Shown here piece by piece: positions 29,835 to 35,056 of a stretch of 64,000 nt of DNA. The stretch is taken from assembly GCA_018402765.1 (NCBI GenBank), contig JAGYIE010000001.1:496001-560000 (forward strand). The letters run 5' to 3'. Positions within the stretch are counted from its first letter, which is position 1, and each line of letters starts with the position of its first letter. The DNA comes from Vicingaceae bacterium (GTDB lineage Bacteria > Bacteroidota > Bacteroidia > Flavobacteriales_E > Vicingaceae). The notes beneath the pieces are model-generated. The model was not told the origin of the DNA and ran no database searches. It was given only the letters and a program-made list of their open reading frames with translations. A program made the translations under genes and the position numbers.

Positions 29835-31235
29835 CTATTCTAATAATCCAAATGCATACGTCGTTTTTAATCGTGCCTTATGATTTTTTGTCAGAATTTC
29901 AATCTGCTTTATTTGCGCACCAATAAAACCTAACTCTCTAGCATTAACCATAAATAATGAACTCTCACCTGCATTAAACAGTTGACGTTCTCCAGAAAGC
30001 AATCGTTCGTAGTCAATTACTGTTCTGGTATATAAATCCAATTGATCTTTGGTTGCTTCCCAATCATTTAAAGCCGAATTGATTTTAAATAATATTTCAG
30101 CTATTTGATTGGTATAATCGAGTTCCGCTTCTTGTAATTTGTAATTGGCTAATCGAAGTGCTCCACGTTCTTTTCTAAGTAAAATAGGCATTGAAAACTC
30201 AACTCCCCAATTATAATTATTGGAATTGTATTCTTCTAGTGGGGAATCATTTATTGCCTCACTTAATGCATTGTATTTCAAGTTTAAAGTAGGTTTAAGC
30301 TGTTCTCTTTTCAGTCGTTGATCAATGGCAATTTGATCTAATTTCAATTGGTACTGTTGTAATTTTGGGTGTTGCATCAGTAAGGTATCTCGCTGAGCTA
30401 AATAATACGCATCAACATCGCGACCAACGACATTTTCATTAACCTCAGGCGTTGCATTTTCGGCAAGCTCTAAAGGCACTGTTCCATCTACCCATAGATA
30501 AACCGCCAACATAGCAGTGCTATTTGCGTAATCTAACTGTGATTGTCGTAAGGCCAGCTGTCTATTCTGTAACTGAATGCCTGCCTCAACTGTATCCATA
30601 AAAGGTTGGTCTCCTAAAATAGCATTTTGTTTTACTGCCTGATAACGTTGATTGGCCAAAACAACAGCCTCTGTATATACAGTAAGCACATTATACGCTT
30701 GAAACCATTCCCAATAGGCGCTCCCTGATTTATACAGTAGTTCATTGATTAATAACTGCCTTTCAGAAACAGTCATTTCTTGAAATAGTTGCGCCTTTCT
30801 AAGCTCTGCTCTTCGCTCATCTATAAATAAACCTGCACCAACAGGCAAAGTTACACCTGCATACCACAATCCATTGGTTGGCGTATTCTTTTCAGGATTT
30901 AAATAAGTACCTTGATTTTGCTCATAGCCTCCCTTCACCTCTATTCCAAACCAAGTTGGAATCTTTACACCTGCATCAATTAGACTATAATAGCTTTTAT
31001 CATCAAAATACTTTTGAGTTAAATCATTAAACAACTTGGGATCAAAATTACCTCGTGATTGCAATACAGTGGCATCACCTTGCTTTAGTCGAATATCGGC
31101 TTGCTTAGCCACAGGGTGATGCGCTCGAACAATTGCCATATATTGATCAAAAGAAATTACCTTAGGTATTGATTTCTGAGCAGTTAAAGCAGAACAAAAA
31201 ACCAAAAAAAGGAAAGATAAAACAGTTCTTCTCAT
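29835..31235 (-). CDS. TolC-family outer membrane efflux protein
   Basis: A 466-residue outer membrane channel protein with signal peptide (about 1-19) and long amphipathic helices in two repeats, as in TolC (QLLINELLYKSGSAYWEWFQAYN, KGDATVLQSRGNFDPKL near the start). It is the last gene of a TetR-ABC-HlyD-TolC operon; its start overlaps the HlyD stop by one base. It should form the trimeric outer membrane exit duct for the substrate of this type I-like pump. Confidence 0.92.
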   Translation of the reverse strand: MRRTVLSFLFLVFCSALTAQKSIPKVISFDQYMAIVRAHHPVAKQADIRLKQGDATVLQSRGNFDPKLFNDLTQKYFDDKSYYSLIDAGVKIPTWFGIEVKGGYEQNQGTYLNPEKNTPTNGLWYAGVTLPVGAGLFIDERRAELRKAQLFQEMTVSERQLLINELLYKSGSAYWEWFQAYNVLTVYTEAVVLANQRYQAVKQNAILGDQPFMDTVEAGIQLQNRQLALRQSQLDYANSTAMLAVYLWVDGTVPLELAENATPEVNENVVGRDVDAYYLAQRDTLLMQHPKLQQYQLKLDQIAIDQRLKREQLKPTLNLKYNALSEAINDSPLEEYNSNNYNWGVEFSMPILLRKERGALRLANYKLQEAELDYTNQIAEILFKINSALNDWEATKDQLDLYTRTVIDYERLLSGERQLFNAGESSLFMVNARELGFIGAQIKQIEILTKNHKARLKTTYAFGLLE

Positions 31236-32593
31236 TATTTATTTTTGCTTATTTCTGTTGTAGCTTGATCGATAGTTTTATAGTAATCAGGAGGAAATCC
31301 ATTAATTTTTCGCCATAATTCATACCAAATAGGAACATCCTTTAAAAGCAGCATACTAGAAGTTCCTGCTCCTACTCGAAGAGCGTTAGGCCAAGTTACA
31401 TCATTGATATCCGGCGCCACAAGTATACGATACATACCATTTGGACTAATATAATTATCAATAGCATAAACAGTTCCTCCATAAGTACCATAACTGACAT
31501 TTGGCCAACCAGAGAATACAATTGCGGGCCAACCGTCGAACTGAATTCGCACATGCTGCCCTTCCTCAAGTAATGGAATATCTATTGGTTTTACATACAT
31601 TGCTATTGCTAAATCATAAAGTGCAGGCATTATAGTAACAATTTCGGCTCCTTCCTTAATCGTTTCTCCTATGCCCGACTGCAGCGTTCGAATGATGTAT
31701 CCATCTTGAGGTGCAGTGATAAAATAAAGTCCCGAACGAACAGAGTAATTCATAAATTGATTCTGTAGTTTAGTTACAGCACCCTCGGCGTCATACATAT
31801 TAGACAAAGCAGTAAATTTTTGAGATTCTGCCTTTGACACTTCGTCACGATATTGAGCTGTTATTGAAGTTAATTCGACTTTGGCATTTAACACCTCATT
31901 CCTAGTAGTCAATAATTTATTTTCATAAGATATGCGCTCTGCTCGAGTTTTTTGCAAGGTTAATTTTCGTTTTTCAAGGTCTGTTAATGATTTCAAACCA
32001 TCATTGTACAATTGCTCCATACGTTTGTATTGCTCTTCTGCAACTTGGTAATTGATTAAAGATGCTTGGTAATCCATGCTATCACTAATTACCTTTAAAT
32101 TTGCTTGCTTTAATTTATTTTGCGCTTGCTCATACTTTAATCGGCCTGTTTGTGAAAGTGCATCAATTTGATTATCCAAGGACTTTACCTTTTCCATATA
32201 TGAGTTAACAGACATTTCTTTTGCTTTAAGCTGATCCTGAGTTCTACTTAGCAATTGTGGATCAAAATAATCATCTTTAACTTCAGAAAGGAATAAGATG
32301 GTATCTCCCTTTTTTACGTTATCTCCTTCTTGAACGAACCACTTCTCAATCCTACCAGGAATAATTGAATGAATAGATTGTTGTCGCTGATTAGGCTTCA
32401 ATGTAGTTACATCGCCTCTAGATCGAATGTTTTGTGTCCAAGGTAGGAACAATATTAAAAATCCTACAATCCCAAAACTGATCATGACACGAATTAAGCG
32501 GCGACTAGATTTTTTAGACTCTACGTAATCTAAAGAACTAAATTTCCCTTTCTTAAGGTTTGGGTCTAATGAATTTGATGATATATTTAACAT
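31235..32593 (-). CDS. HlyD-family membrane fusion protein
   Basis: A 452-residue adaptor: cytosolic N-terminus, one membrane helix (about 33-50), an N-terminal biotinyl-lipoyl half (PGRIEKWFVQEGDNVKKGDTILFL, about 89-112), a long coiled-coil hairpin (about 125-285) and the second lipoyl half with beta-barrel (FITAPQDGYIIRTLQSGIGETIKEGAEIVTI). It bridges the ABC subunit and the TolC channel. It starts 4 bases after the ABC gene. The substrate is not evident; no toxin or bacteriocin gene is linked. Confidence 0.93.
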   Translation of the reverse strand: MLNISSNSLDPNLKKGKFSSLDYVESKKSSRRLIRVMISFGIVGFLILFLPWTQNIRSRGDVTTLKPNQRQQSIHSIIPGRIEKWFVQEGDNVKKGDTILFLSEVKDDYFDPQLLSRTQDQLKAKEMSVNSYMEKVKSLDNQIDALSQTGRLKYEQAQNKLKQANLKVISDSMDYQASLINYQVAEEQYKRMEQLYNDGLKSLTDLEKRKLTLQKTRAERISYENKLLTTRNEVLNAKVELTSITAQYRDEVSKAESQKFTALSNMYDAEGAVTKLQNQFMNYSVRSGLYFITAPQDGYIIRTLQSGIGETIKEGAEIVTIMPALYDLAIAMYVKPIDIPLLEEGQHVRIQFDGWPAIVFSGWPNVSYGTYGGTVYAIDNYISPNGMYRILVAPDINDVTWPNALRVGAGTSSMLLLKDVPIWYELWRKINGFPPDYYKTIDQATTEISKNK

Positions 32594-32597
32594 CTAA

Positions 32598-34319
32598 TTA
32601 TAAGTTTATAAAGTTGATGATGTCTTTCATTTCTTGATAAGTACCTTTTTTGCCGACTTTACCTTTTTCTAAAGCAATTATTTTGTCGCAAGATTTTGCT
32701 AAATAAACATTATTAGATACAGCTACTAATGTCCAATTATTTGATTTATCAGAAAGAAAATCAAAGATTTTTTTCATCTCTAGATCATCTAAACTATCAA
32801 AAGCATTCTCGAGTAAAAGCAAACTTGGTTTACTAGCTATACTCCTAGCTAACAGCAATTTACGAACAACACTCCTTGGTAACTTATTACCCAAAGGATC
32901 TAAATGTGTATCAAAACCTTTAGATAAAGTTTTAATAAATTCAGCCAACCCCAAGTTTTCCACTGCCCACCTTACCTTATCGAAGGTAACATTCTCTCTA
33001 CCTACAGTTATATTTTCCAAAACCGTTCCTTCAAATAGCTGTTCCTCACTAAGGCAAGAACCAATTTCAATTCTTAAAGAGTTAACTTGCAAATTATCTT
33101 TAGCTAATCCATTGTAGGATACAGTTCCTTGTTGAACATCATACAATCCTGATATCAAATTAAGCAAAGTGCTTTTGCCTGATCCATTAGCTCCGGCTAT
33201 CATATAACAATTTCCTTGGGTCAACTCTAATGTGAGGTCTTTAATCGTTTGTTTATGAAAACCAGGGTAAGAAAAAGAAACCTTATCTAAATTGATAGTC
33301 AATCCTTTTCCACTAGTTTCATCACATAAGTTTATCCCATCATTATTATCCAAATCCATATCCGTTACCTGCCCTACTTTTTCTAAAGAAGTCAATACAT
33401 CATAGATTGTTTCTAAACTCAATACTAATTTTTCTACTGAATTAATTACTAAAAGTATAATAATTTCTGCAGCTACGAATTGCCCTATATTCATTCGTTG
33501 CTCCATCACCAAAATTCCCCCGATTAACAATAATCCTGCAGCTACAATAACTTTAAACAAGACCATAAAGGAGAACTGTTGGACTAAAATTTTAAAGTGT
33601 TCTTGACGAGCTTCAACATATTCACCAACATGCCCATTAACCTTAATCATAGGCAAATCAGAGTCTCCGGCCAATTTAAAAGTAGTCGCCGTTCTTGCCA
33701 ATTCCTCTAACCAATGAGCAACTGCATATTTATGCTTTGACTCTTTTAAACTTGTTTCTAAACCCTTTTTGGAAGTATATCTAAAGATAATGTACACTAA
33801 TATGACAAGTACAAAACTAAATATAACAAAAAATGGATGATAGAACGAAAGTAGAATCAACCCAAAAACTACTTGTAGAGCTGCAGCAGAAAAATCGATT
33901 AGTATTTTAGAAAGGCCTTTTTGAACTGAAACAATATCAAAAAACCGATTCATTAGCTCTGGAGCATAATGCCTGTAAATTCTTTCCATTTTAATCTTAG
34001 GAATCCGGTAAGCAAATTCAAATGCAGCTCTAGCAAAGATCTTCTGTTGGATGCTCTCTGTAATGTGCAATTGAAAAATTTGAAGTAACCCTGACATTCC
34101 AACACCAAGGACAACAAAAAATACTAAAATAATCCATGAAGTACTTACCTGACCACCCTGAATTAAATTAATAATAGCCTGAATACCTAACGGTAGGGAT
34201 AGATTAATTAGACCATTAAATATGGAATAAATATAGACATTGCGAATTTCCTTTTGATCCGGTTTTAGCAATTTCCAAAATCGCTGTGTGGGTGTTAAAG
34301 TTGAGTTATCCGTTATCAT
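32598..34319 (-). CDS. ABC exporter subunit with degenerate ATPase motifs
   Basis: A 573-residue fused ABC exporter: transmembrane domain with about six helices (25-310) and a nucleotide-binding domain (340-573). Walker A is intact (GANGSGKST, 376-384), but the Q-loop Gln is Ser425, the LSGGQ signature reads LPRSV (480-484), the Walker B Asp-Glu pair is Glu504-Asn505, and the H-loop His is Asn536. There is no peptidase domain. By textbook criteria the ATPase would be weak or inactive, yet the gene is intact and in an operon with HlyD and TolC. I chose the ATG at 34319; an in-frame start at 34355 would overlap the TetR gene by 29 bases. Confidence 0.92.
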   Translation of the reverse strand: MITDNSTLTPTQRFWKLLKPDQKEIRNVYIYSIFNGLINLSLPLGIQAIINLIQGGQVSTSWIILVFFVVLGVGMSGLLQIFQLHITESIQQKIFARAAFEFAYRIPKIKMERIYRHYAPELMNRFFDIVSVQKGLSKILIDFSAAALQVVFGLILLSFYHPFFVIFSFVLVILVYIIFRYTSKKGLETSLKESKHKYAVAHWLEELARTATTFKLAGDSDLPMIKVNGHVGEYVEARQEHFKILVQQFSFMVLFKVIVAAGLLLIGGILVMEQRMNIGQFVAAEIIILLVINSVEKLVLSLETIYDVLTSLEKVGQVTDMDLDNNDGINLCDETSGKGLTINLDKVSFSYPGFHKQTIKDLTLELTQGNCYMIAGANGSGKSTLLNLISGLYDVQQGTVSYNGLAKDNLQVNSLRIEIGSCLSEEQLFEGTVLENITVGRENVTFDKVRWAVENLGLAEFIKTLSKGFDTHLDPLGNKLPRSVVRKLLLARSIASKPSLLLLENAFDSLDDLEMKKIFDFLSDKSNNWTLVAVSNNVYLAKSCDKIIALEKGKVGKKGTYQEMKDIINFINL

Positions 34320-34326
34320 AAATCCT

Positions 34327-35022
34327 TTAATTAGTTGTAATTTCAATCGCTCCAATGGCCTTTAACACCATATCCTTGTAGAATGTTGTTATTGCATCTT
34401 CACCTTTAATTATGTCAGTCAATCGAGGTAAATGAGCAGCAAAGTAATGTTGATGATGCGCTCCTTCTATTACTGTTGAAATAAGCATATGAGGATATTT
34501 AAACGTTGGGTTAATCTCCAAAATAATATCACTTATTTGTTCTACTAACTGCTTGTAAACTGAATAAGCTCCTTCTTCGTTGTCACTATCGACCTCCTTT
34601 GTTAAGTATGCTTTAGAGGATTCGCAAATGACAACTTGATTTAATTTAATCATATCAATATGAGTAGACGTTAAATTCTCTTTTATCTTTTCAGTAAGTA
34701 AAGCTATTGATCTAGAAAGTCTTTCGATTGGAGAAGATACATTTGTTGTGCAAAAAATTAAACGATACTCCATCCAGCCCCAATACCATGAAGTAAGGTA
34801 TAACAGTAACTTATGCTTGCTTTCAAAGTATCTATAGATAGAAGCTTCTGTTGATTCAATGGAGTTGGCTAATTTTCTAAAAGTAAACGTATCGAAACCA
34901 ATTTCATGGATTAAATCAAGAGAACCTGATACAATCTTTTTACCTAACTCGCTAGAATCAGGCTGCTTAATGAATAAATTTTCGTTTACCCGTATTTCGA
35001 TTTTAGTGAAAAAATCCTCCAT
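34327..35022 (-). CDS. TetR-family transcriptional regulator
   Basis: A 231-residue regulator: N-terminal HTH (about 20-68; GFDTFTFRKLANSIESTEASIYRYFESKHKLL split across helices 2-4) and a helical ligand-binding domain. It is the first gene of the efflux operon, 7 bases before the ABC gene, and probably autoregulates the operon in response to the exported compound or a membrane signal. I chose the ATG at 35022: an in-frame ATG 90 bases upstream would lie above the -7 promoter element at 35049-35056 and adds a non-conserved leader. Confidence 0.9.
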   Translation of the reverse strand: MEDFFTKIEIRVNENLFIKQPDSSELGKKIVSGSLDLIHEIGFDTFTFRKLANSIESTEASIYRYFESKHKLLLYLTSWYWGWMEYRLIFCTTNVSSPIERLSRSIALLTEKIKENLTSTHIDMIKLNQVVICESSKAYLTKEVDSDNEEGAYSVYKQLVEQISDIILEINPTFKYPHMLISTVIEGAHHQHYFAAHLPRLTDIIKGEDAITTFYKDMVLKAIGAIEITTN

Positions 35023-35048: not shown

Positions 35049-35056
35049 CAAATATA
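35049..35056 (-). promoter_or_regulatory. Putative -7 promoter element of the TetR-ABC-HlyD-TolC operon
   Basis: On the minus strand this reads TATATTTG, an exact TAnnTTTG match, 27 bases before the TetR ATG. It decides the start choice for that gene. Confidence 0.55.

Follow-up and report, generated by a model that had tools for sequence, protein, structure and literature searches.

Degenerate and deleted ATPase domains in an ABC exporter family of HlyD-TolC operons: candidate proton-coupled tripartite exporters

The window analyzed here, a 64,000-nucleotide stretch of the genome of a Vicingaceae bacterium, encodes an ABC exporter-like inner-membrane protein, P0001, in which every ATPase motif except Walker A is replaced. 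Relatives with the same losses are under purifying selection and are encoded next to genes for HlyD and TolC, and one clade of the family has no nucleotide-binding domain (NBD) at all. On balance, we favor reading P0001 as the inner-membrane subunit of a proton-coupled tripartite exporter that derives from ATP-driven exporters and has abandoned ATP hydrolysis.

Results

P0001 is encoded on the minus strand, as are all features of the window described below, at positions 32598 to 34319 of the window, and its reading frame is intact (573 amino acids from ATG). The protein has the architecture of a type IV ABC exporter: an ABC_membrane transmembrane domain (residues 12 to 330, positions 33330 to 34286; modeled by AlphaFold with six long helices) and an ABC_tran NBD (residues 342 to 564, positions 32628 to 33296), both scoring above the Pfam cut-offs (44.9 and 69.7 bits, respectively). 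The first gene of the group encodes a TetR-family regulator (P0004, positions 34327 to 35022), and P0001 is followed by a HlyD-family periplasmic adaptor (P0002, 452 amino acids, positions 31235 to 32593) and a TolC-family outer-membrane channel (P0003, 466 amino acids, positions 29835 to 31235), all three assigned by Pfam. Because the genes are separated by gaps of only 7 bp and 4 bp and then overlap by 1 bp, tetR, P0001, hlyD, and tolC read as a single operon. The original prediction of a full-length gene with intact HlyD and TolC partners thus agrees with our data. It had also placed an exact TAnnTTTG promoter element ahead of the operon. The string is indeed present upstream of tetR (TATATTTG, a possible Bacteroidota -7 element, positions 35049 to 35056), but the pattern occurs 104 times in the window compared to 103.8 expected from shuffled sequence; because this frequency is at chance, the motif alone is no evidence for a promoter, and we did not use it as such.

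The AlphaFold model of P0001 (17 sequences) has a mean pLDDT of 77.6; most of the NBD scores about 90. The best PDB match of the model is PCAT1 (8vox, TM score 0.67), and other type IV exporters, including TM287/288, also match; the HlyB/D complex 7sgr is found among the top 50 structural matches at ranks 40 and 50. Sequence matches in the PDB include ABCB4, P-glycoprotein, and PCAT1. In keeping with type I secretion systems, P0001 shares its operon with both HlyD and TolC; its best score against type I secretion permease/ATPase models is 188 bits, with a cut-off of 693. P0002 matches the EmrA model at 48.5 bits, which is below the cut-off.

Can P0001 hydrolyze ATP? We assigned its motif positions from an alignment that included eight canonical exporters. 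Of the motifs, Walker A is intact (GANGSGKST, residues 376 to 384 with K382; positions 33168 to 33194), and the other four motifs are replaced, as had been predicted: the Q-loop Gln is Ser424 (positions 33048 to 33050), the LSGGQ signature is LPRSV (residues 480 to 484, positions 32868 to 32882), the Asp-Glu pair that ends Walker B is Glu504-Asn505 (positions 32805 to 32810), and the H-loop His is Asn536 (positions 32712 to 32714). P0001 therefore has none of the four features expected of a functional ATPase beyond Walker A. The motif loss is not a genome-wide decay: in the five other full-size exporters of this genome, a pattern search found LSGGQ in four, a D-E-A-x-S-x-x-D Walker B in four, and H-R/K in all five, so that they look canonical apart from one signature and one Walker B that did not match the pattern. 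P0001 is very unlikely to hydrolyze ATP, because in a homodimer each of the two composite sites would be missing the signature, the general base, and the His.

Searches with P0001 matched 25 of 60 relatives (E ≤ 1e-60), 102 of 395 genomes of the phylum (E ≤ 1e-38), and 20 loci of a genome contig collection, 16 of them close relatives. Before counting, we left out L001 and L002 (the same genes as P0001 and L028) and eight loci duplicated at L143 to L150. Mechanical rules sorted the 123 aligned rows into 78 of class D (with the Walker A lysine but without the Walker B Asp-Glu pair), 25 of an intermediate class I (Walker B Asp-Glu present, not fully canonical), 8 canonical (class C), 4 without Walker A (class W), 6 without an NBD (class N), and 2 fragments (L022 and L024, dropped), with L129 sorted as D although it falls in the intermediate clade, L018 sorted as I although it falls in the D clade, and L025 sorted as D although its Walker A is not real. 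L027 was dropped from the trees.

Walker A is retained in P0001 and most of its class. The Walker B pair is missing from all class D rows by definition, but the remaining losses are not built into the class: the H-loop His is absent in 77 of 78 rows, the full signature is found in none of the 78, and the Q-loop Gln persists in only 12. The closest comparison is a same-genus relative from Acidiluteibacter ferrifornacis (L028), which is 78% identical to P0001 and shows the same motif losses. Canonical motifs in close relatives would have pointed to a decaying copy; what we found instead is a conserved TetR-ABC-HlyD-TolC variant, in line with the original prediction. The exact strings LPRSV and LEN, whose conservation across genera was named there as support for a real variant, are not conserved; it is the loss that is conserved, together with loose patterns. 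The Walker B position mostly carries Glu followed by Asp or Asn (60 and 67 of 78 rows), the signature position mostly reads L-[P/S]-x-[S/T], and the replacing residues differ between close relatives. In the intermediate class (L109 to L134), Walker A, Walker B, and mostly the His are kept, and the signature is largely lost along with the Q-loop Gln.

The operon is conserved along with the degenerate gene. Among loci with enough flanking sequence, hlyD follows in 56/56 D, 4/4 W, 6/6 N, and 22/24 I loci, and tolC is present in 52/52 D, 3/3 W, 6/6 N, and 21/24 I testable loci. Because tetR adjoins 41 of 54 D loci compared to 1/4 W, 1/6 N, and 0/24 I, the regulator is a class D feature and not a family-wide one. 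The original prediction offered a second ABC protein as a possible source of activity. Our survey does not support this: no operon examined contained a canonical ABC gene, nor did any supply the complementary partner subunit, usually adjacent, of a degenerate-site heterodimer. Nearby canonical ABC exporters were flagged in class D only for L028, after tolC, and for L067, about 4 kb away; the A. ferrifornacis gene (L028:10994-12724) follows the tolC of its operon, and none was seen beside the operon of the window.

Several features vary across the family. Many relatives (for example, L017, L116, and L157) carry an N-terminal extension of about 160 to 200 amino acids before the membrane domain, in which we found no Pfam match; it is missing from P0001 and from the NBD-less clade. 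Some genomes (G653, G534, G752, and G050) hold two or more family copies, and G752 has two NBD-less copies and one full-length copy. In Riemerella anatipestifer, a plasmid roughly 100 kb in size carries a version of the operon with a degenerate cassette (L221:3953-8307).

In six genomes of the phylum sample, the gene encodes only the membrane domain (334 to 360 amino acids) and is followed by hlyD and tolC. A query with one of these (L106) matched 114 of 250 genomes of its order, with the short form in 73 genomes (75 places) and the long form at 42 places, the two being told apart by open-frame length. A second family gave matches in 76 of 81 genomes, with the short form in 27 genomes (28 places). 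Together with one further genome of the phylum search, the NBD-less gene is present in 101 genomes, most of them counted by open-frame length and 54 distinct places checked at the sequence level. In the 56 NBD-less loci inspected (54 distinct; L103 to L108 and L163 to L212), the stop codon falls 0 to 21 residues past the aligned membrane domain, and hlyD is the next gene in all 56. The sole NBD match nearby was a generic 286-amino-acid ABC ATPase further downstream in L103. A quick tree, for which thinning at 80% identity left 80 of 120 rows, placed the six N rows in one clade (SH-aLRT 99) with a sister, L157, that has a degenerate NBD. A search of the six N genomes with L157 revealed no dedicated stand-alone NBD; each genome has several stand-alone ABC ATPases or exporters, and the stand-alone NBDs are only about 24 to 31% identical to the sister NBD, that is, generic. 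In the two of five N pairs that gave a finite dS, the membrane domain shows purifying selection (omega of 0.030 and 0.015, the second pair being dS saturated).

The conservation of the two domains is inverted relative to canonical exporters, the membrane domain being more conserved than the cassette. With L129 and L018 left out, mean pair identities were 0.54 (membrane domain) versus 0.348 (NBD) in class D, where the NBD was the higher in only 2 of 2,926 pairs, 0.50 versus 0.442 in class I, and 0.335 versus 0.472 in class C. The degenerate cassette is still under purifying selection: the dN/dS check called for in the original prediction gave an NBD omega of 0.024 to 0.139 wherever NBD dS was finite (10 of 14 D pairs), values that are rough because dS is saturated in several D pairs. 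NBD dN exceeded membrane-domain dN in 13 of 14 pairs.

The membrane domain carries a set of conserved charges. Glu285 in TM6 (positions 33465 to 33467) is near-invariant in the family (86/87 D/W/N rows and 23/24 I) and absent from class C (0/8). Lys134, Lys138, Lys197, His241, and Lys314 are conserved to a similar degree, and position 256 in TM5 is mostly Lys or Arg. By the AlphaFold helices, Glu285 would lie one helical turn deep in TM6, counted from the periplasmic side, the Glu296-Lys297 pair around mid-helix, and Lys256 within TM5, depths that are estimated from helix ends in a model that is weak at residues 276 to 289. Because class I rows share the charges, they predate the loss of the ATPase. 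ICL1 (NRFFD...QK) is kept in NBD-less members. Coupling helix 2 retains R209, F214, and K215 in D and, for the most part, in I, and these residues are changed in N; three of five conserved positions are lost there in N compared to 18/92 elsewhere (Fisher P = 0.066), so that a loss of coupling-helix-2 residues with the NBD is only suggestive.

Relatives outside Bacteroidota come from a plasmid collection only, in which 3 of 10 matching records were from Sphingomonadales (Alphaproteobacteria); 15 Sphingomonadales records were found at ≥50% identity. In the eight that we fetched, Walker A, Walker B, and the His are all gone, and the family's signatures in TM6 and ICL1 are kept. Genes for an adaptor (HlyD; biotin/lipoyl-binding in one) and TolC follow in 7/7 annotated records, the eighth (L219) being without gene annotation. 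The eight rows form one clade (100) that groups with class I (99) and not with D, and because of this placement the Sphingomonadales cassette, judged from the tree, died independently. Three of the 15 records are annotated as "transmembrane domain-containing" and not as ATP-binding. On plasmid pHAL16 of Sphingobium sp. KCTC 72723, a DUF2309 gene lies directly before the dead-cassette ABC gene (L218:1138-3690).

Discussion

ATP hydrolysis is very probably not the power source of this machine. We propose that a P0001 dimer, the HlyD adaptor, and a TolC duct would form a tripartite exporter under TetR control, descended from ATP-driven type IV exporters that gave up hydrolysis. Transport would proceed by alternating access of the membrane-domain dimer, with the conserved charged residues of its helices providing the coupling to the proton gradient. 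The cassette of P0001 may persist as a folded, perhaps ATP-sensing scaffold docking on coupling helix 2, and it would have been deleted altogether in one clade. The cargo may be a small toxic molecule or peptide that is exported and sensed by TetR. Coupling to the proton gradient would be the simplest powered mechanism, and it has precedents: the MsbA membrane domain without its NBD carries out ethidium efflux on delta-pH (excerpt of PMC4979069), the LmrA membrane domain, which also transports ethidium on an ion gradient, is described as a secondary-active translocator in which TM6 residue E314 is needed for proton-coupled transport (excerpt of PMC6155054), and SbmA is described as a proton-driven, inferred descendant of an ABC transporter that lost its NBD (excerpt of PMC13316013). 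Three observations sit less easily with this mechanism. Glu285 and most of the other charges also occur in class I and may bind substrate or stabilize the dimer, nucleotide may still act in P0001, which has kept Walker A, and NBD-less members keep ICL1, unlike SbmA, whose coupling helices are lost. The original prediction of a pump that binds ATP without fast hydrolysis may hold for P0001 in that nucleotide binding is possible, but binding is dispensable in the family, since Walker A is missing from some relatives and the whole NBD from others.

Does the inner-membrane subunit need to supply energy at all? A regulated channel or facilitated-diffusion exporter, ATP-gated or ungated, would need neither hydrolysis nor a proton path; ATP on the Walker A of P0001 would be its switch, and in NBD-less members the adaptor and substrate alone would set the gate. 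We regard this alternative as unlikely. Retention of Walker A in P0001 and most of its class, a cassette that is well folded in the model, and the extreme conservation of the membrane domain are all consistent with it, yet a TolC leak across both membranes would be costly, the buried conserved charges look more like those of a coupled transporter than of a pore, and the loss of Walker A or of the NBD in relatives removes the proposed switch. The intact Walker A and folded cassette, together with purifying selection on the NBD, could also be those of a slow or unconventional ATPase that uses Glu504 or the Asp/Asn at position 505 with other residues, the Glu-Asp/Asn pair being a possible new consensus and the NBD-less clade a later, separate specialization. 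This is unlikely, given that Q-loop, signature, Walker B, and His are all altered, which leaves no complete composite site either in a homodimer or with a canonical partner, and that the replacement residues differ between close relatives.

Another potential explanation, that some other cellular ABC ATPase serves the membrane domains as a shared, docked motor, draws on the conservation of ICL1 in NBD-less members and on the several stand-alone ABC ATPases or exporters in each of the six genomes searched. It is nevertheless quite improbable: the operon has no NBD in the 56 inspected loci, the stand-alone NBDs of the six genomes are generic, R209, F214, and K215 are kept in NBD-bearing rows and changed in NBD-less ones, and in P0001 the protein's own cassette fills the docking site. 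That P0001 is simply a decaying gene is hardly credible. Multiple catalytic residues are lost and the NBD evolves faster than the membrane domain, as decay would have it, but the frames are intact, omega is far below 1, the same losses recur in the same-genus relative and across class D, and the operon is conserved; we rejected decay on these grounds.

More broadly, the family may represent a natural and repeated conversion of ABC exporters from ATP-driven to ion-driven transport within a tripartite machine that spans the envelope, its successive stages still present today, a reading for which we see the case as evenly balanced. The series would run from intermediates that keep Walker B and His, to dead cassettes with Walker A (P0001), to cassettes without Walker A, to deletion of the NBD (about 100 genomes), with the independent cassette death in Sphingomonadales added to it. 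Besides RND, MFS, and ATP-driven ABC pumps, tripartite efflux may include a further energy class. It is misleading to annotate genes of the P0001 family as "ABC transporter ATP-binding protein". Evidence for ABC membrane domains working without an ATPase has so far come largely from engineered truncations and SbmA importers; natural exporters with and without an NBD in the same operon context make the idea directly testable. A literature check by title and start of abstract, a limited test with subscription papers and bioRxiv preprints outside its scope, found no description of the family.

How does the family compare to known systems? It resembles HlyB-HlyD-TolC and PCAT-type exporters (HlyB, PCAT1) in fold and in the adjoining hlyD and tolC genes. 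It differs from them in that its ATPase motifs are lost or its NBD is absent, and P0001 has no room for a C39-like domain before its membrane domain and no recognized secreted-protein gene alongside. With the SbmA/BacA transporters (SLiPTs), it shares a type IV ABC membrane domain, loss of the NBD, and conserved acidic residues in the membrane domain; as described in the excerpt of PMC13316013, SLiPTs are importers with an inferred YddA-like ancestor, extra TM0 helices, and lost coupling helices. The P0001 family, in contrast, is found in HlyD-TolC operons and keeps ICL1. P0001 itself has an NBD, ICL1, and coupling helix 2, so that its coupling helices are not lost, and only the inspected NBD-less relatives share the absence of an NBD with SLiPTs. 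The model of a member without Walker A (L042; mean pLDDT 67.4, pTM 0.47) was too weak for interpretation. The LmrA and MsbA membrane domains can transport alone on ion gradients, although, in the excerpts of PMC6155054 and PMC4979069, they are engineered laboratory truncations of proteins whose native forms have working NBDs. Heterodimeric exporters such as TM287/288, TAP, and TmrAB also have degenerate catalytic motifs in an NBD, but their partner restores one good site (excerpt of PMC7756269). P0001, in contrast, is a single chain that is altered in all motifs except Walker A, with no partner gene in its operon.

EmrAB-TolC is a proton-driven inner-membrane pump with a HlyD-type adaptor, TolC, and a repressor in the operon, and its pump is an MFS protein. 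The operon of P0001 has the same kind of adaptor, outer-membrane channel, and operon repressor, with an ABC membrane domain in place of the MFS pump. ABC-derived transporters without an ATPase are already known from SbmA/BacA; what appears to be new is to find them as the inner-membrane component of HlyD-TolC operons, where the losses are graded and cassettes have died independently at least twice.
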